A stretch of 64,000 nt of DNA, taken from positions 1 through 64,000 of the forward strand of contig WHST01000023.1 of the NCBI GenBank assembly GCA_009379955.1, in the 5' to 3' direction. Position numbers and translations under genes: made by a program. The stretch comes from Streptosporangiales bacterium. GTDB lineage: Bacteria > Actinomycetota > Actinomycetes > Streptosporangiales > WHST01. The notes beneath the pieces are model-generated. The model had not been told where the DNA came from and did not search any database. It saw only the letters and a list, made by a program, of their open reading frames with translations. Below, piece after piece: positions 55,642 through 64,000 of this stretch. Positions within the stretch are counted from its first letter, which is position 1; every line of letters starts with the position of its first letter.

Positions 55642-55717
55642 GCGCCGCTAGCTCAACTGGCAGAGCAACAGACTCTTAATCTGTGGGTTCGGGGTTCGAG
55701 TCCCTGGCGGCGCACCA
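55642..55717 (+). tRNA. tRNA-Lys (anticodon CTT); attachment site of the integrated element
   Basis: Acceptor GCGCCGC (55642-55648) pairs with GCGGCGC (55707-55713), followed by A and encoded CCA. Anticodon loop CTCTTAA gives CTT. The integrase gene ends 46 bases downstream, so the 3' half of this gene (about 55675-55717) is the probable attL core and the tRNA has been kept functional by the element. A second copy of this 3' part should mark attR beyond the window. Confidence 0.95.
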
Positions 55718-55763: not shown

Positions 55764-56964
55764 TCACACTTTACTCACACTTTTGGGTTCCGACTCGGAA
55801 TCCAGGGCGCCTTCAAGAGCAGCTGCAGCTCGGCCACTCATCACCTTGCGACCGAAGTAGACATCCTGGGTCATCGACGGCCGAGCGTGGCCGAGCTGGT
55901 CCGCTACCTCTCTCGCACTGAGCCCCGCGTCGTCGAGGATGGTGGCGGCCGTCTTACGGAAGTTGTGCGAGGTCACCCAAGCAAAGCCCTCGCTTCCGCG
56001 TGCTTCGCGTAGTTCGCGACGAGTGTTGGGAAGGGTCGCGGAGGCCATCTCGGCTATCTGGGAACACCGGCTCATCGAAACGCGGGTGAGCCAGGAACCT
56101 CTGTTGAAGCATCTCGGCCGCCCAACGAGGTAGGCGCAGCTTCCGCTCTCCGGCTCGGGTCTTGGTGCGCTTTCGTACCAGGCCAACGCCAGTAACGCGG
56201 ATGACCGTCGAGGTGATCATGACCGTGTGTTCCTGGAGATCGACATCTCGCCACTGAACGGCGAGGGCCTCCCCGATCCGGACGCCGGTGGCCAGCATGA
56301 ACCGACAGAGGTCCGGGAGGTCACGGTGCCTAGCCGTCTTGTCGACGTCGAGTTGGGCAAGCCAGGCCACCCGCTCGTCGTGGGTGAGGGCACGCGGCTC
56401 ACGCTGAGTCTTGCCCTCGACACGATCGACCTCTCGGACCGGGTTGGCGACGATGGCGCCATAGCGGACGGCGAGGCCCAGGACACCGGAGAGGATGCTC
56501 CGGCAGCTCTTCGCAGTCGGCGAGCCGGTCTCCGCCGCGATCCGCCGGATGAACCGGTCAAGCAGCGGCGTAGTCATCTCCACTAGTCGAAGATCGCCGA
56601 CTGCAGGATTGACGTGGTTCTTGAGGTGCCGTTGATAAGTCTCAGCACTTGCCGGCGACCGGGCTTCCTTGTCGACCAGCTCCTGAAATCGTGTCAGCCA
56701 CAGATCAGCCGCCTCGTGGAACCTCGTCGAGGCGGACAACTCGCCTTGTTGAGCGAGCGTGGCTCGTTCCGTGAGCGCGGTACGAAGGTTCCTCCTCGCC
56801 ACCGCAGGAGTCTTCCCCCACCGCTCGACACGCCGCGTGCGGCCGTCGAAGTCACGGTAGTTGGCGTTGGCCTTGTGTGCGGTCGGCTTGCCATCTTCGT
56901 CGTACCGACCTGGGTAGACACGAATCTCTCCCCAAGCACCCAAGGGCAACGGTTTTCGCGGCAC
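55764..56964 (-). pseudogene. tyrosine integrase of the AICE, interrupted by a frameshift
   Basis: From GTG at 56964 (AAGGAGGG upstream) the frame runs through the N-terminal arm and core-binding domains to RFDEPVFPDSRDGLRDPS, carrying the first catalytic Arg in ATGVRIGEAL. It then leaves frame near 56027-56035; the other frame continues NTRRELREARGSEGF and holds HNFRKT (HxxR), LGHARPS (His) and the nucleophile Tyr in DVYFGRK, ending at 55764. An extra base in the CCTTCCCAAC stretch explains it. Repaired length is about 399 residues, normal for AICE integrases. Sequencing error or inactivation cannot be told apart here. Confidence 0.85.
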
Positions 56965-56979: not shown

Positions 56980-57156
56980 CTAAGCTGCGCTCTGCTGCAC
57001 TTCAAACCAGGCCACGACGTCGGCAGGGTCGTAGCGGACGTATCGGCCGATCTTGGCGCCGGGCGGGCCGTACTTGCGGGTGCGCCATTGGTAAAGGGTG
57101 TTGACGGGTACTCGGAGGTATGCGGAGACCTCCTCGATGGTCCATAGCGGCGTCAC
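56980..57156 (-). CDS. excisionase-like helix-turn-helix protein
   Basis: A 58-residue protein from GTG at 57156 (AGAGGA upstream). It is an MerR/Xis-type winged helix of the helix_turn_helix_17 (AlpA/excisionase) family: TIEEVSAYLRVPVNTLYQWRTRKYGPPGAKIGRYVRYDPADVVAWF. It is 15 bases ahead of the integrase gene, as xis is in pSAM2-like elements, and should bind at the attachment sites to direct excision. Confidence 0.87.
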   Translation of the reverse strand: MTPLWTIEEVSAYLRVPVNTLYQWRTRKYGPPGAKIGRYVRYDPADVVAWFEVQQSAA

Positions 57157-57203
57157 GCGTTGTTCCTCTCGTATGTGGTCCTTCCTGTCGGTGTCTCGGG
57201 GCG

Positions 57204-58775
57204 TCAGACCGCGACGGTGGTGAGGTCCAGGTGCTCGTGGACGGAGTCGCGGGCGGTCTGTGCTCGGAGCCGGGCGAGTGCGGCAGCGGTGTTGGCGAGG
57301 GTGGCGTCGGCGGTGGTGTGCCAGCCGATTCCGGCGTAGGTGAGGTTGCTGACGATCACGGTGTCGTCGTCCCGGTCGTCGATGGCGCGGACCTCGACGG
57401 TGGTGTCGGGGGTTTGCGAGCGTCGCCAGGTGACGCGGAGGCTGCGCAGGTAGCCGAAGCTGACGGAGTAGGCGCGGGCTTTGGTGAGGAAGTGTCCGCC
57501 GTAGCCGAGCATGTGTGCCCATTTGCCGAGGCTGTGCCAGTGGGCGTGGCGGGACAGCCGCCAGCACGCTTCGATGAGCCGCTCGGGATGGGAGCCGGTG
57601 GGGTCGGCGTAGGTGTTGATGGTCTCCGAGGTCAGCCTGGTGGAGACGTGCCCGGTGGTCTCGGTGCTCTTGGTGGCGTACTTGGCAAGATACCCGGCGA
57701 CCTGGGAGTCGGTGACCGAGTTGTCGCCACGCAGCAGCACCGGCCGCAGGTCCAGTTGCTCACCCCAGCCGATCGGCCAGCCCTCGGGTCGGTAGGTCGG
57801 GTGCGCCGGGGTGCGGAACCGTGTCGTGGTCGCGGCGAGCTGGATGACGTCGGTGAGCAGGTCGACGTCGGCGGCCGGGTCGGGTGGAGTGACCTGGTCG
57901 GGGTGGTAGGGGTCGACGCCGTCCAAGCGGAACAGAACGTGGAAGTGGATCACGCCACGGGTCTGGTATTCGGCGACCTTGGCGTACCGGATCCGCAACG
58001 TGGACAACGACCGGTGTTCGCCGGGGCCGGTTTCGACGTCGAGGAACCCGACACCGCGCTGCCGGGAGACGTGGACGAGGCTGCGAGTGAGCGCCTGGAC
58101 GGTGCGGCGCCACAGTTCGCCGGCGTGGTTGTTCCACACGACTTGGGCGTCGTGGTCGTAGCAGTCCAGGCACAGCGGATGCCCCAGCGCCATGTCATCG
58201 ACGCCGTGCCGCTGAGAACATGAGGTCAACCGGCCGTGCTCACACGTGGTCGCGTCGCGGCGTGCTCGGCAGGGTTCGGAGCGGCACCGGCACCGCTTCC
58301 GGCTCTCACAAGTGTGGTGTTTGACGACGCGGGTGTGCACAGCGCCGAACGAGGGTGCGGTGAAGGTGGCGAAGACGGCGGAGTGCGTAGCAACAGACTC
58401 ATCGATGGTCTTGCCGCCGACGAGGCCGGCGCGGATGAGCTGGTAGGCGTCTTGGCGGTACCGCTCCGCGCAGGAGGGGCAGACGGTGTGGCGGCGGTTC
58501 CCGCAGGCCTTGTAGATCACCCCGTCCGGCAGCGTCGAGGTATGCCGGGAGTCGAGGAGCTGCCCGCTGCGGGTGTCGACGGTGGCCAGGTCGCCACGGA
58601 GCTGAACGGGGCGCTGGCATCCGGCGGCGGGCCACACGTGGCTCAGCCAAGCGTCGTAGCCCTCACCAGCGCGGGCGAGGTACGCGTCGGTGGCGGGGGT
58701 GGGTTCGGTGCTCGCCCCCACGCCCGAGCCCGGATGGGGTTCGGGGGTGAGGGTCAGCATCGATGCTGAACTCAT
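57204..58775 (-). CDS. repSA: RepSA-type rolling-circle replication initiator
   Basis: A 523-residue protein from ATG at 58775, overlapping the previous stop by ATGA. The N-terminal half has Cys/His clusters (CPSCAERYRQDAYQLI, CESRKRCRCRSEPCRARRD, HPLCLDCYDH) forming zinc sites. The HUH motif is GVIHFHVLFRLDG (His277, His279) and the nucleophile region is YLAKYATK (Tyr362, Tyr366). This is the actinobacterial RepSA family used by pSAM2-like elements for replication after excision. Compared with the 459 residues of pSAM2 RepSA it is somewhat longer, mainly at the N-terminus. Confidence 0.9.
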   Translation of the reverse strand: MSSASMLTLTPEPHPGSGVGASTEPTPATDAYLARAGEGYDAWLSHVWPAAGCQRPVQLRGDLATVDTRSGQLLDSRHTSTLPDGVIYKACGNRRHTVCPSCAERYRQDAYQLIRAGLVGGKTIDESVATHSAVFATFTAPSFGAVHTRVVKHHTCESRKRCRCRSEPCRARRDATTCEHGRLTSCSQRHGVDDMALGHPLCLDCYDHDAQVVWNNHAGELWRRTVQALTRSLVHVSRQRGVGFLDVETGPGEHRSLSTLRIRYAKVAEYQTRGVIHFHVLFRLDGVDPYHPDQVTPPDPAADVDLLTDVIQLAATTTRFRTPAHPTYRPEGWPIGWGEQLDLRPVLLRGDNSVTDSQVAGYLAKYATKSTETTGHVSTRLTSETINTYADPTGSHPERLIEACWRLSRHAHWHSLGKWAHMLGYGGHFLTKARAYSVSFGYLRSLRVTWRRSQTPDTTVEVRAIDDRDDDTVIVSNLTYAGIGWHTTADATLANTAAALARLRAQTARDSVHEHLDLTTVAV

Positions 58776-59185
58776 GCAGCCTGCCCGACAGAAGCGTCGC
58801 GGCAGTCGAGGCATTCCCCGTAGCTCTTGGGGATGTAGTACCACTTCTCCACCTGGCAGGTGGGGCAGATCCGGCGCGCTCGAAGCGCCTTCTCAACCGC
58901 AGCGAGCTGCGCGGCTGTCGCGGTCCGCTTGGGTGCGGCCCGGTCGATCCGATAGAGGTATGCGACTCGGAGGCCGCGTCGCCACAGGATCTGCGCGGCC
59001 GGCTCCTGGCCACCAGGGCGAAGGCCCCGTGCCCGGAGTTGCCGGACGGTCGCCAGGCCCTCGGGTGCCCACTTGTAGGGGTAGGTCGGCAGCGGGTGCC
59101 GTTTGCCCTCGGGATCGTAGTAGGCGAAGAAGAACCCACGGGTGCGGATCAGGTGCTCGAGGTACTCGTTCCGCAGCCCGATCAT
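58772..59185 (-). CDS. RRQRL-motif zinc-binding protein of AICE
   Basis: A 137-residue protein from ATG at 59185. It shows FAYYDPEGKRHPLPTYPYKWAPEGLATVRQLRARGLRPGGQ, then LRVAYLYRIDRAAPKR, and a zinc site made of CPTC and CLDC. Proteins of this type, with an RRQRL-like motif (VRQLRARGLRPGG here), are found next to repSA in many Streptomyces elements; their function is unknown. ATGA overlaps on both sides mean it is translated with the GIY-YIG protein and RepSA, suggesting a role in replication or its control. Confidence 0.75.
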   Translation of the reverse strand: MIGLRNEYLEHLIRTRGFFFAYYDPEGKRHPLPTYPYKWAPEGLATVRQLRARGLRPGGQEPAAQILWRRGLRVAYLYRIDRAAPKRTATAAQLAAVEKALRARRICPTCQVEKWYYIPKSYGECLDCRDASVGQAA

Positions 59186-59460
59186 TGGTACACCCCGTGT
59201 CGTGGGGTGATGCCGCACAGGGGGCAGCGGCGTGACGCACCGCCTTGGGTCTTCAGTCGACGTTCCCGGGTGCGGGTGCCAGGCCAGGTGCGAGCCAGTC
59301 GCCAGCCGATGCCGGCTTCGGTGATGACAGTGAGCAGTCGGGCGCCATGGCCGGTGGCGTGCTCGTTCAGGCGAGCGCCGAGGTTGGTGGTCCAGCCGGT
59401 GTAGTGCCGGGCATGCCGGTACGGCTGGTCGAAGTGCAGTAGGTAGACGGTGCCAGTCAT
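59182..59460 (-). CDS. small GIY-YIG-domain nuclease-like protein
   Basis: A 92-residue protein consisting of little more than a GIY-YIG domain: VYLLHFDQPYRHARHYTGWTTNLGARLNEHATGHGARLL, with the first Tyr in VYLL, HYTGW for the second part and Arg in ARLNEH. A C-terminal CPLC pair may bind zinc with another Cys/His. GIY-YIG proteins cut DNA at repair, recombination or homing sites. Here it is embedded between replication and protease-like genes with ATGA overlaps. A role in element processing is inferred. Confidence 0.8.
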   Translation of the reverse strand: MTGTVYLLHFDQPYRHARHYTGWTTNLGARLNEHATGHGARLLTVITEAGIGWRLARTWPGTRTRERRLKTQGGASRRCPLCGITPRHGVYQ

Positions 59461-60140
59461 GACGATGCCCCGTCCTGGTCAGGGGTGAAGTACTCGTCAC
59501 AGACGCTGCAGATGATTGGCCCGAGGTCGAGGACCGTGGTGGAGACGCGGATGCGTCGTGGGCACCCGCATAGGCAGGTAGACCCGTTGTTGCTCGTCGT
59601 CCTGGTCGACGACGCCCTCAGTTCGGGGTGTCGCCAGGCGGTGAGGGCCTTCTCCAGACCCCGGAGCGTCGTCTTGTAGGTGTCGAGGGTGTCGGGTCGG
59701 GCCTTGGTCAGCGACCAGCCGATGGACTCGTCCTTGGCCGTGTCCAGGCCGAGCTCATCGGCGAGGGCGCCGAACTTCTTGTTGTGCCACCGGCCCTGCC
59801 GGGACGTGTCCTTGATCTCCCGCACATCAGCCAGGGCATGCGCGCCCTCATGCAGCAGCGTGGTGAGGATCTCCGGTGCGGGCCGGTTCAGGCCCTCTCC
59901 CGCGATCAGGATCTCGGGGAGCCGGTCGGTGCCGTGCTGCCATTTCAGGGCACCGAAGTGGCCCCACACGGGGTGTTTGCCGAGGGTGCCTGGGCCGACG
60001 ATGAGGACCGCCTGCGGCAGCTCGGGATGCGCGTCGCGGATCGCGGTCCACGCCTTCTCCAACGAGGTGACCACGCGGGCGGTGGTGAAGGTGTCTTGAC
60101 ACGTACGTGTCAACTTCTTCTTCGACGCGGTGGCGGTCAT
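59457..60140 (-). CDS. HExxH metalloprotease-like protein with C-terminal zinc ribbon (SprT-like layout)
   Basis: A 227-residue protein. LLHEGAHALAD gives His97, Glu98, His101; a third ligand is probably in GRWHNKKFGALADELGL. A zinc-ribbon with CLCGC and CSVC lies at about 188-215. HExxH plus C-terminal ribbon is the layout of SprT/SPRTN-like proteins, which cut DNA-bound proteins; ArdC-type antirestriction proteins have a similar metallopeptidase. The assignment is at layout level only. It is coupled by ATGA to both neighbours. The combination with a GIY-YIG gene and RepSA suggests a job on DNA-protein complexes of the element. Confidence 0.65.
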   Translation of the reverse strand: MTATASKKKLTRTCQDTFTTARVVTSLEKAWTAIRDAHPELPQAVLIVGPGTLGKHPVWGHFGALKWQHGTDRLPEILIAGEGLNRPAPEILTTLLHEGAHALADVREIKDTSRQGRWHNKKFGALADELGLDTAKDESIGWSLTKARPDTLDTYKTTLRGLEKALTAWRHPELRASSTRTTSNNGSTCLCGCPRRIRVSTTVLDLGPIICSVCDEYFTPDQDGASS

Positions 60141-60406
60141 GACGCCGCTCCCCGGTCGATGCGGCGCAGTTCACTGGCGTCGCGCCAGCACATCGGGTAG
60201 ACGATGTCACCGTCGATATCGGTCTGGGTGACCCGGTGGTCCTCGACGAGTACGTCCCACTCGTCGGGGCCGACCTGACCGAGGATCACACCGGTCATCC
60301 ATGGCCAGGTATCGCGGTCAGCGCTGTCGCTGGGTCGTGGGTACTTGACGAGCACCGCGGTGTCGTCGGGGAACCGGCCGTCGTTGTCGAGGTAGCCGTT
60401 GTTCAT
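60137..60406 (-). CDS. small hypothetical protein of AICE
   Basis: An 89-residue acidic protein from ATG at 60406 (ATGA with the upstream stop). WPWMTGVILGQVGPDEWDVLVEDHRV suggests a small beta-barrel (KOW/SH3-like). It ends in a charged RDASELRRIDRG tail. No family was recognised. Transcription and translation are linked with the metalloprotease-like gene by a second ATGA. Confidence 0.6.
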   Translation of the reverse strand: MNNGYLDNDGRFPDDTAVLVKYPRPSDSADRDTWPWMTGVILGQVGPDEWDVLVEDHRVTQTDIDGDIVYPMCWRDASELRRIDRGAAS

Positions 60407-60720
60407 GACGGATCTCCGCCCCAACGCTGTTGCGCGGCTTGGCGGGTAGTACCTGTACGGGCAGTGATCTCGGCCCAGGAGTAGCCGAAGCCGTGCAGTC
60501 CGGTGACGGCGTCGGCGAGGGTGTTGTCGAGTTGACAGCGCAAGGTGAGGAGTTGGTCGAGGCCGTCGATGTCGCCGGCGGCAATCCGGCGGCCGTGTGC
60601 ACGCACAGCACGGGCGATGAACGCGGCGTAGGAGTCATTCTCCACGTGCCGTCGTGTCCGTCGATTGGGTGTCAAGCCACGCTTGACGGTGATTTGGGTG
60701 CGGGACAGGCGCGCGGTCAT
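60403..60720 (-). CDS. small HTH protein of AICE, sigma region 4-like
   Basis: A 105-residue basic protein. The C-terminal part LHGFGYSWAEITARTGTTRQAAQQRWG is a helix-turn-helix like sigma-70 region 4 or related DNA-binding proteins. The N-terminus is rich in Arg (SRTQITVKRGLTPNRRTRRH). It may regulate the element's genes or assist at its origin. ATGA overlaps both neighbours. Confidence 0.65.
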   Translation of the reverse strand: MTARLSRTQITVKRGLTPNRRTRRHVENDSYAAFIARAVRAHGRRIAAGDIDGLDQLLTLRCQLDNTLADAVTGLHGFGYSWAEITARTGTTRQAAQQRWGGDPS

Positions 60721-61130
60721 CGGACACCTGCCGTGGTGTGGTGCCGCTTAGCGGCGTTACGCAGGGTCCGGATCACCTGGGCTTGGGTGGTGTCGGGGTG
60801 GTCGTTCCAGGACCAGACGACCTGTCGGGGGGTGACGTCGTCGCGCCAGATCCCGTCGTCGAGGTAGTCGGCGAGGTCGTCGATGACCCGGCCGACGTGT
60901 TCGGCCGCGACGAGGCTGCGCTCGCCGTTGGCCATGGTCTTGCTGAAGGTGACGATGTTCAGTGCGCCGAGCACGCACGCCAGCGGTAGCGGGTCGCCGG
61001 TGTGCTTGAACAGGTCGCCCTGGCACCAGCCGTTGTACTCCAGGTACAGCGCGGCATCCTCGTAGGTGCGGGCGACGTCGAACTCGGGACTGTCAGCCGT
61101 GGGGCTGACGGTAGGGTTGGCAGTCTCCAT
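60717..61130 (-). CDS. DUF6197-like hypothetical protein of AICE
   Basis: A 137-residue protein from ATG at 61130. RTYEDAALYLEYNGWCQGDLF, CVLGALNIVTF and DDLADYLDDGIW...VVWSWNDHPDTTQAQVIRTLRNAAKR are shared by small proteins of actinobacterial mobile elements (DUF6197). Function unknown. The gene begins after an 80-base gap with an AGGAAGG-like site, so it may start a subset of translation within the operon. Confidence 0.6.
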   Translation of the reverse strand: METANPTVSPTADSPEFDVARTYEDAALYLEYNGWCQGDLFKHTGDPLPLACVLGALNIVTFSKTMANGERSLVAAEHVGRVIDDLADYLDDGIWRDDVTPRQVVWSWNDHPDTTQAQVIRTLRNAAKRHHTTAGVR

Positions 61131-61417: not shown

Positions 61418-61716
61418 GGCTGGTCTCCTCGCGGGCAGATGATGTGGCGGAACAGTTGTCCGCATTCAGGGGTGTCGATGACGTGACCGACGGGAACGAA
61501 GGCGTGGTCGTCTTCGCCGGAGAGTCGGTCGCAGTGCACGCAGGTGAACCCACGTGCTTGGGTGCCGCGTAGCTGGGTGCGGTAAACCGCCGGACTGGTG
61601 CCCCAAGTGACGGGGTAGAGCCGGACGTACCGCAGCTGCGCGAGGGTGTCGAGGAACGCCTTGTAGGTGCGGAACCTCGACGCGGTGCCCATGGTGTGGG
61701 CGGTGGTGGTGGTCAT
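61414..61716 (-). CDS. small hypothetical protein with possible zinc site
   Basis: A 100-residue protein, ATGA-coupled to the FtsK-like gene. FRTYKAFLDTLAQLRYVRLYPVTWG precedes FTCVHCDRLSGEDDHAFVPVGHVIDTPECGQLFRHIIC, in which CVHC with later Cys and His may bind zinc. Function unknown; expression with the ATPase suggests a transfer or regulatory role. Confidence 0.55.
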   Translation of the reverse strand: MTTTTAHTMGTASRFRTYKAFLDTLAQLRYVRLYPVTWGTSPAVYRTQLRGTQARGFTCVHCDRLSGEDDHAFVPVGHVIDTPECGQLFRHIICPRGDQP

Positions 61717-62570
61717 GCCGCGACCTGCTCTCCGGGAGCATCGGGGCCGGAGTCGCGGCGGGTCCAGGTGACGTAATCGACGATGTGTTCGATGTCGTCA
61801 TCGGACAGCCAGGCGGCCTTGATCTTGGTCGGGTAGCCGCCTTCGGCGAGCAGGTAGCAGACGCCGCGTTCGGTGGGCAGGATCGTGCGGGCGTCGTAGC
61901 CGTCCTTGGCCCAGCCGCGTCCGAGGATCAAGTCACTGGAGTCGGGTGTGGTGCAGCGGAACGCAGCGCGGTAGGCGAACAGGTCCCGCAGGTTCGCCTC
62001 GATTACGGGTGGGTTGCCTGCCCCGGAGGGGCGTTGGGTGGCGGCGATGACGGGCATGCCGCAGGCGCGGCCCCTGGCGACGAGGTCGCGGACGAGGGCG
62101 TTGAACTCCTTCTGCTGGTCTGGGGTGCCGAGGACCGAGGAGTAGACGGCAAGTTCGTCGATCGCGACGAGGATGACCGACAGCGGATCGGTCTTGGTGA
62201 TCTTCCTCTTCCGCTTCGCGGTGAGGTACGCGTACCGGTTGTTCAGGATCTTCTGCAGCCGCCGAAGCGCGATCAACGCGGCTTCGGGGTCGGGGCCGAT
62301 CACGTCGTCGGCGATCGGGCGCCAGGGCTCGAACTCGACGATCTTGCCGTCGAACAGGACGAGTCGGGTGTTCACGCTCATCGCGGCGTGCCCGATGATC
62401 GTGTTGACGAACACGCTCTTCCCGCCGCCGGGCTCTCCCGCGACGAGCATGTTCCGGTACATCAGCGTGGCGTAGGCCGGGTGCCCGGTCTCGGTGTTGC
62501 CGAGGTAGATCGGGTCGTACATCGACAGCATCGGCCCGACCGGGACCGAATCAGTCACTGTCATGCTCAT
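61713..62570 (-). CDS. FtsK/SpoIIIE-like DNA translocase ATPase of AICE
   Basis: A 285-residue RecA-fold ATPase. Walker A is GEPGGGKS (45-52), Walker B SVILVAIDELAV (Asp138-Glu139), followed by RDLVARGRACGMPVIAATQRPS with the TQRPS sensor of FtsK-type motors. No membrane segment and no winged-helix gamma domain are seen; the protein is about half the usual TraB/TraSA length. In AICEs one FtsK-like motor moves double-stranded DNA between hyphae. Here the membrane parts may be encoded separately by the small genes upstream (62551-62742 and 63166 onward), which is inference. Confidence 0.85.
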   Translation of the reverse strand: MSMTVTDSVPVGPMLSMYDPIYLGNTETGHPAYATLMYRNMLVAGEPGGGKSVFVNTIIGHAAMSVNTRLVLFDGKIVEFEPWRPIADDVIGPDPEAALIALRRLQKILNNRYAYLTAKRKRKITKTDPLSVILVAIDELAVYSSVLGTPDQQKEFNALVRDLVARGRACGMPVIAATQRPSGAGNPPVIEANLRDLFAYRAAFRCTTPDSSDLILGRGWAKDGYDARTILPTERGVCYLLAEGGYPTKIKAAWLSDDDIEHIVDYVTWTRRDSGPDAPGEQVAA

Positions 62571-63165: not shown

Positions 63166-64000
63166 TCAGATCCAATCGGTGATGTCGTTGCCGCCAGGCC
63201 CGGTCACGGTGCCGTTGGCATCGGGGTTGACCGGCTTGGTGTTCTTCGACTTCCTGGCCGGCTTCTCCGGCTGGTGCTCGTCCTTGATGTCGTCGGCGGT
63301 GACGTCGCTGTAGTCCAGGTCCGTCGGAGCCTCGGTGACGGCGCGTTGCAGGGCGGGCACATCGGTGGCGATCTCACCGGTCAGCGGCGAGTCGATGGTG
63401 TCGGTGAACGTGTTCTTGCGGGTCACGTCGAACCGGACCCAGGCCTTGTTGGTGTCCTTGGTGTGCGACACCGTGACCTCTTTGGCCCAGCAAGTGGTCG
63501 TGATCTTCGACGACACCGCCTGGATGTCCTCGATCGAGACACCCGCGCGGAGTAGCACCACGCAGGTGACGCCGGCCTTGGTGGGTGTGGCGCCGAAGAT
63601 GAACGGTTCGGGATCGAACCGGCCGACGACGATGAAGTTGGTGAAGCACTTGCGGATGCGGTGCCGGATGATGAAGCACCACGCGAGTGCGACCACTGCC
63701 TCACGCAGCGGTTTGATGAGTGCCGGGACGCCGACGATGACAGCGATGACGACGACGCGGACCGGCAGTGTGGTGTGTTGGGCGAGGTTCATCCACCCCG
63801 CGGTGAGTAGGACCACGACGGTGATCTCGGGTAGCCACCACCACACGTAGCGGACGATGGGCCACACGTAGATGAACAGGGCGCAGAGCCCGCCGATGAC
63901 GAACCCGGTGAGGCCGCCGAGGATGGCGGCGAGGATCGGGTGGGTGTACTCGCTGGCGATGAGCATCGTGACCAGGCCGAGCACGACTCCGACCAGGACC
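63166..64000 (-). CDS. multi-pass membrane protein of AICE, 5' end beyond the window
   Basis: The frame is open to the window edge; at least 278 residues are visible. Three to four hydrophobic segments (ILAAILGGLTGFVIGGLCALFIYV, WWLPEITVVVLLTAGW, VVVIAVIVGVPALI) lead to a cytoplasmic domain with FGATPTKAGVTCVVLLRAGVSIEDIQAVSSKI and a long charged tail (KDEHQPEKPARKSKNTKPV). The cytoplasmic part resembles regions that precede the motor domain in Streptomyces FtsK/Tra proteins. Together with the soluble FtsK-like ATPase it may form a split transfer machine. ATG at 63984 is internal; the true start may be outside. Confidence 0.6.
   Translation of the reverse strand, partial: VLVGVVLGLVTMLIASEYTHPILAAILGGLTGFVIGGLCALFIYVWPIVRYVWWWLPEITVVVLLTAGWMNLAQHTTLPVRVVVIAVIVGVPALIKPLREAVVALAWCFIIRHRIRKCFTNFIVVGRFDPEPFIFGATPTKAGVTCVVLLRAGVSIEDIQAVSSKITTTCWAKEVTVSHTKDTNKAWVRFDVTRKNTFTDTIDSPLTGEIATDVPALQRAVTEAPTDLDYSDVTADDIKDEHQPEKPARKSKNTKPVNPDANGTVTGPGGNDITDWI

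Follow-up and report, generated by a model that had tools for sequence, protein, structure and literature searches.

A SprT-like protease gene, a minimal GIY-YIG nuclease gene and an RRQRL gene in a probably exchangeable slot of a RepSA-type integrative element of a Streptosporangiales bacterium

Introduction

When a rolling-circle initiator shares an operon with a predicted protease and a predicted nuclease, do these enzymes release the initiator from its DNA, or are they independent passengers of the same mobile element? The question is raised by a stretch of 64,000 nucleotides from a Streptosporangiales bacterium (contig WHST01000023.1, positions 1 to 64,000, here called the window), in which four minus-strand genes of an actinomycete integrative and conjugative element (AICE) follow one another in the order sprT-like, giy, rrqrl and repSA, with an ATGA overlap at each junction. 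These encode a predicted 227 aa zincin metalloprotease with a C-terminal zinc ribbon (59457-60140), a 92 aa stand-alone GIY-YIG nuclease domain with a C-terminal CPxC (59182-59460), a 137 aa zinc-binding protein (CxxC...CxxC) with the RRQRL motif (58772-59185) and a rolling-circle initiator possessing an HUH motif and two tyrosines (57204-58775). A preliminary description, made from the letters of the sequence alone, had listed the same genes; their positions, strand and overlaps were all confirmed, and its domain readings and the AICE context were found to be right. It had also suggested that the genes form a replication module for the release or recycling of the initiator, or for anti-restriction. 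The analysis presented here indicates that protease and nuclease are probably accessory enzymes that act independently of each other, in a slot whose content is exchanged within a clade of RepSA AICEs, and not a fixed machine.

Distribution of the genes in RepSA-type elements

The surroundings of approximately 118 RepSA genes were examined, these being high-scoring RepSA matches among 395 genomes of the class together with some picked loci, a sample which is not random. With the window and the Kribbella AICE L033 (found through its sprT gene) left out of the count, neither sprT nor giy was present within 6 kb of repSA at any of the remaining 116 loci, and rrqrl was present at four. The preliminary description had proposed a search for the three genes beside repSA in other AICEs as a check; one further AICE, L286, has them all. 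A three-gene module conserved with RepSA was rejected on the 116 loci, a rejection that is softened by L286.

In related AICEs the gene that precedes repSA is mostly DUF2637/SpdB-like. In a list of 128 genes, most of them drawn from the position just upstream of repSA in AICEs, DUF2637 was the common occupant with 18 members, while SprT-like genes numbered two (window and L033) and GIY-YIG was absent from the families common to several of these genes. The AICE and its genes are real, but the place occupied by the set is a variable slot, and the set does not represent the standard AICE replication module. Protease, nuclease and RRQRL each have their own distribution and mostly travel apart.

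The ATGA overlaps noted in the preliminary description are confirmed, but they do not single out the four genes, because each of the eight junctions tested between ftsK and repSA is ATGA. Translational coupling is an operon-wide trait, NTGA junctions also being seen in related AICEs (as predicted with a crude gene caller), and since ATGA runs through the whole operon it was rejected as a sign of a functional unit.

The operon appears to serve transfer and replication in an actinobacterial AICE (tRNA-Lys, int, xis, repSA ... ftsK), and the exchangeable slot would lie between repSA and the genes on the ftsK side. The SprT-like protease and the minimal GIY-YIG nuclease were probably drawn from a gene pool shared by phages and plasmids. 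Each would most likely act alone to help the incoming or replicating element, the protease by clearing proteins stuck to DNA and the nuclease by nicking branched or damaged DNA, with co-expression with RepSA arising through the shared operon and not through processing of the RepSA-DNA link. RRQRL, common in FtsK-type conjugative elements, probably aids the translocase side of transfer.

The SprT-like protease

The SprT-like protein possesses the HExxH motif at 59838-59852, a third metal ligand (His119) at 59784-59786 and a CxC...CxxC zinc ribbon at 59499-59570. These are kept, with rare exceptions, across sets of 23 and 29 divergent homologues, H97, E98, H101 and H119 being invariant or nearly so and in conserved order. 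Its match to PF10263 (E-value 8e-4, 19.6 bits) lies under the Pfam gathering score of 25.6, and the same profile is matched by 20 of 29 homologues in one set and 11 of 23 in another. It is therefore called SprT-like by motif and profile only and is not a certified member of PF10263. With the SprT-like/Spartan (SPRTN) proteases of that family it shares HExxH, a downstream His and a zinc ribbon, and the profile match spans the active-site helix and the third ligand. It differs from them in falling below the Pfam cut-off, in having its best fold matches among small zincins at E-values above 0.1 and in lacking ubiquitin- or PCNA-binding parts. These fold matches, 2ejq and abylysin (4jiu), were obtained with an AlphaFold model (predicted local distance difference test score, pLDDT, 88) and are weak (E-values 0.2-0.4); Spartan was not among the top 50 matches of the model, and a SprT profile searched against PDB sequences gave chance matches only. 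Identity with ArdC (PF08401 + PF18818) was rejected on the lack of a PF08401 match. The latter is a plasmid-borne protein whose zinc metalloprotease domain is akin to Spartan in structure; unlike ArdC, the window protein has no ArdC-N single-stranded DNA (ssDNA)-binding domain, and its third ligand is His and not Glu.

The SprT family occurs in 82 plasmid records, 12 phage records and 56 viral contigs, and also in dozens of chromosomes of one genus, probably Streptomyces. None of the 56 phage-borne or viral sprT loci has giy, rrqrl or repSA within 5 kb, and the 89 neighbouring genes are of mixed functions with nothing consistent among them. The chromosomal homologue adjoins a prolyl-tRNA synthetase gene in at least six short loci (L016, L017, L018, L020, L022 and L027), and this member is perhaps a housekeeping gene. 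In the tree, sprT of the window has sprT of the Kribbella AICE L033 as its sister (SH-like approximate likelihood ratio test, SH-aLRT, 92), suggesting that the protease gene is probably ancient in this AICE clade and has often been lost. A literature search for SprT together with HUH initiators or relaxases found nothing relevant.

The GIY-YIG nuclease

The GIY protein matches PF01541 with an E-value of 0.006 (17.2 bits, under the Pfam gathering score of 22.6), and seven of its 13 homologues match this profile at an E-value of 0.01 or less, the best at 4.7e-7. Across 13 relatives, which come from phages, actinobacteria and cyanobacteria, Tyr6, Tyr20, Arg30, His34, Glu66, Lys70 and the CPxC do not vary. 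A structure model (pLDDT 86) has Slx1, HIGLE and UvrC as its top Foldseek matches, and a profile search retrieved UPF0213 (1zg2, E-value 1.2e-4) and, more weakly, Slx1-like chains; both the GIY-YIG fold and its catalytic residues are present. While the fold and the catalytic Tyr, Tyr, Arg and Glu are shared with the UvrC N-terminal domain, Slx1 and UPF0213, the window protein differs from these in being a stand-alone 92 aa domain with VYLLHF and HYxG motifs, the C-terminal CPxC and no UvrB or Slx4 partner domain. With active-site residues conserved in both proteins, the SprT-like protein is probably a live metalloprotease and the GIY protein probably an active nuclease.

This GIY subfamily was found at approximately 36 phage, plasmid and integrative and conjugative element (ICE) loci, including cyanobacterial plasmids, a Nonomuraea plasmid and several ICE- or plasmid-like loci. 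At only two of these loci, those of the window and L286, is a SprT-like gene a neighbour. When the surroundings of 19 GIY loci were scanned for HExxH, the window and two Gloeothece plasmids were the only ones with a zincin, a third Gloeothece case with a split gene being recognized by annotation, and no zincin was found around 12 further GIY loci. A GIY-zincin pairing as a rule was rejected by these neighbour scans (3/19 and 0/12 loci), which gave at most the window and Gloeothece cases. In the tree, giy of the window and giy of L286 belong to separate, weakly supported groups, so that giy was perhaps gained twice in these elements.

Other members of the subfamily include a truncated giy lying directly before rrqrl in L309. 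In a 132 kb viral contig (L108, 2478-5972) the same GIY domain occupies residues 843-923 of a 1164 aa protein which also carries a 2′-5′ RNA ligase-like domain (weak Acb1 match); this is a polyvalent-type protein.

The RRQRL protein

RRQRL is a full member of NCBIfam NF041638 (137.8 bits, cut-off 65). In 20 RRQRL loci (L257-L276), chosen by family score alone, a same-strand FtsK/TraB gene was present within approximately 3 kb in 18, the other two lying near contig ends. RRQRL seems to belong to the core of FtsK-type conjugative elements, tracking FtsK and not RepSA. No literature on the function of RRQRL was found.

Metallopeptidase-like neighbours of RRQRL genes were also observed elsewhere. 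In L054 (17752-18812) the RRQRL gene is followed by an open reading frame (ORF) with HEAGH, and in L257 (5668-6330) an ORF with HELVH overlaps the end of the RRQRL gene. In L067, L068 and L072, all of them plasmid-like, the two kinds of gene share a contig, with 8-10 kb separating the RRQRL-like from the SprT-like gene.

The RepSA initiator

RepSA matches PF20199 with an E-value of 7e-143 and has the HUH motif HFHVLFR as well as two tyrosines in YLAKY, within VAGYLAKYATK; HxH and Y-x-x-K-Y were present in most of the 118 RepSA proteins scanned. A two-tyrosine HUH initiator can free itself by handing its DNA link over between its two tyrosines, as is established for enzymes of the phiX174 gpA type. 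As a two-tyrosine HUH enzyme, RepSA should likewise be able to free itself from DNA. Its motifs have been described as related to those of the phiX174 gpA-type group (PMC3218068).

Recurrence in L286 and in Gloeothece plasmids

Several findings weigh against the independence of these genes. L286 (G650:C22) came to light when the flanks of protease matches in 347 genomes of the order were read. It is an AICE with a tRNA-Pro(GGG) near its integrase, which is intact and distant from that of the window, and yet all four genes recur in it, in the reshuffled order ftsK, two small genes, sprT, rrqrl, a helix-turn-helix (HTH) gene, giy, a DUF2637-like gene and repSA. Identity to the window is 45% for sprT, 73% for giy, 68% for rrqrl, 51% for repSA and 55% for ftsK. 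Both elements belong to the same RepSA clade in the RepSA tree (where row L060 was cut out of frame, its position being meaningless). A GIY gene of the window's subfamily also comes immediately after an ArdC metallopeptidase gene in three plasmids of Gloeothece. The Kribbella AICE L033 has sprT before repSA without giy or rrqrl; giy is thus present in one of the two sprT-bearing RepSA AICEs besides the window and in none of the 116 loci without sprT (Fisher p 0.017), a comparison with biased ascertainment, as loci were sought via sprT, and with tiny numbers. Together L286 and Gloeothece suggest, from a biased sample, that the association of protease and nuclease exceeds pure chance.

It should be mentioned that the Gloeothece GIY gene is split in all three plasmids by an identical -1 shift of frame that follows 7-8 consecutive A (L094 5001-5266, L095 3998-4266 and L103 3986-4254), and in L094 there is also an in-frame stop. 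This may be either shared decay or a programmed frameshift.

Alternative explanations

The association could reflect a mobile DNA-protein crosslink (DPC) repair pair, in which the SprT-like protease would trim covalently bound proteins and the GIY-YIG nuclease, similar to UvrC and Slx1, would cut out the remaining peptide adduct; this would keep the element replicating in stressed hosts, and RepSA need not be the target. Such a division of labour is chemically sensible, as bacterial nucleotide excision repair, which employs the GIY-YIG protein UvrC, is limited to DPCs smaller than 12-14 kDa, and a need for prior digestion by a protease has been proposed (PMC6945406, a review on repair in general and not on mobile elements). 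The conserved catalytic residues of both enzymes are consistent with it, as are the presence of sprT and giy together in L286 despite the reshuffling and the zincin ArdC beside the same GIY subfamily in Gloeothece. However, the genes are apart nearly everywhere, given the two of approximately 36 GIY loci with a SprT-like neighbour and the 56 phage sprT loci without giy, and a repair pair is considered unlikely.

A second possibility is an establishment or anti-defence set acting early after transfer, whereby the SprT-like protein would protect entering DNA as ArdC does and the GIY protein would attack host DNA or defence intermediates. The metalloprotease domain of ArdC does resemble Spartan (PMC7213743), the GIY subfamily has ArdC as its neighbour in Gloeothece and a restriction-modification pair nearby in Nostoc, and the genes are frequent in phages. 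Set against this are the missing ArdC-N domain and the different third ligand of the window protein, and PADLOC matched no known defence system. In addition, ArdC works where ssDNA is transferred, while double-stranded DNA (dsDNA) is believed to be what AICEs move, via an FtsK-type translocase, and the protease active site of ArdC was dispensable in that study (PMC7213743), yet it is conserved in the SprT-like protein. This explanation is likewise considered unlikely.

It is also conceivable, at a similarly low probability, that some conjugative elements carry a mobile repair or establishment cassette composed of a SprT- or ArdC-type protease and a minimal GIY-YIG nuclease, which would unblock their own DNA during rolling-circle replication or after entry and would have been assembled more than once (in the window and L286 AICEs, and as ArdC-GIY in cyanobacterial plasmids).

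The RepSA release or recycling put forward in the preliminary description, in which the protease would digest RepSA left on the DNA after rolling-circle replication and the nuclease would cut at the origin, is very improbable even though the genes adjoin repSA in one operon in the window and sprT is also upstream of repSA in L033 and L286, because a two-tyrosine initiator can free itself (the conserved YxxKY tyrosines implying self-resolution by strand transfer) and nearly all RepSA elements manage without sprT or giy, while most sprT and giy genes, including the 56 phage sprT loci without partners, are in elements without RepSA, RRQRL tracks FtsK and the gene order is shuffled.

Organization of the element

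The element is an AICE of the RepSA type next to a tRNA-Lys (CTT) gene on the plus strand (55642-55717), the probable attachment site. All other features described here are on the minus strand, where the four genes are the 3′ end of a longer operon, with an ftsK-like gene and several small genes before them and xis and int after them. The gene immediately 5′ of sprT-like, orf60137 (60137-60406), is small, of unknown function and ATGA-coupled at both ends, including its junction with sprT-like. It is preceded by genes for a sigma/HTH-like small protein (60403-60720; phrog_686, HTH DNA binding protein) and a DUF6197 protein (60717-61130), both common to related AICEs, and by that for the FtsK/TraB-type dsDNA translocase (61713-62570; PF01580, E-value 1.5e-13). 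Further upstream lies an AICE gene of unknown function, coding for a protein with a hydrophobic N-terminal part (63166-63984), which is kept upstream of ftsK in related elements. The contig stops at base 64500, short of the far end of the element and its far att site.

Downstream of repSA there is a xis-like excisionase gene (56980-57159) for a small HTH protein, homologues of which adjoin repSA in related elements, and a tyrosine integrase gene (55764-56964). The latter is frameshifted near its C-terminal part, with an N-terminal 336 aa ORF (55954-56964) and the catalytic C-terminal part in another frame (55764-56186). This may be decay or an error in the draft assembly, and with its integrase broken this copy of the AICE may be immobile. 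The source genome has a second RepSA element (L171, G000:C14:22001-39000), with no sprT, giy or rrqrl nearby.

Like the RepSA-type AICEs pSAM2 and pMR2 (Ghinet et al., 2011, PMC3218068), the element has a tRNA site, a tyrosine integrase, xis, RepSA and an FtsK-type translocase in one operon. It differs from these in having sprT-like, giy and rrqrl in the slot before repSA, where the usual occupant is DUF2637/SpdB-like; the words "nuclease" and "metallopeptidase" are absent from the main text of that paper.

Significance for AICE biology

The finding implies that AICEs acquire proteases and nucleases out of the gene pool that also supplies phages and plasmids. It gives the unstudied RRQRL protein a first genomic association, namely with the FtsK/TraB translocase. 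If a repair role of the protease and nuclease were true, the two AICEs and the three cyanobacterial plasmids would be candidates for elements that bring their own DNA-protein crosslink repair.

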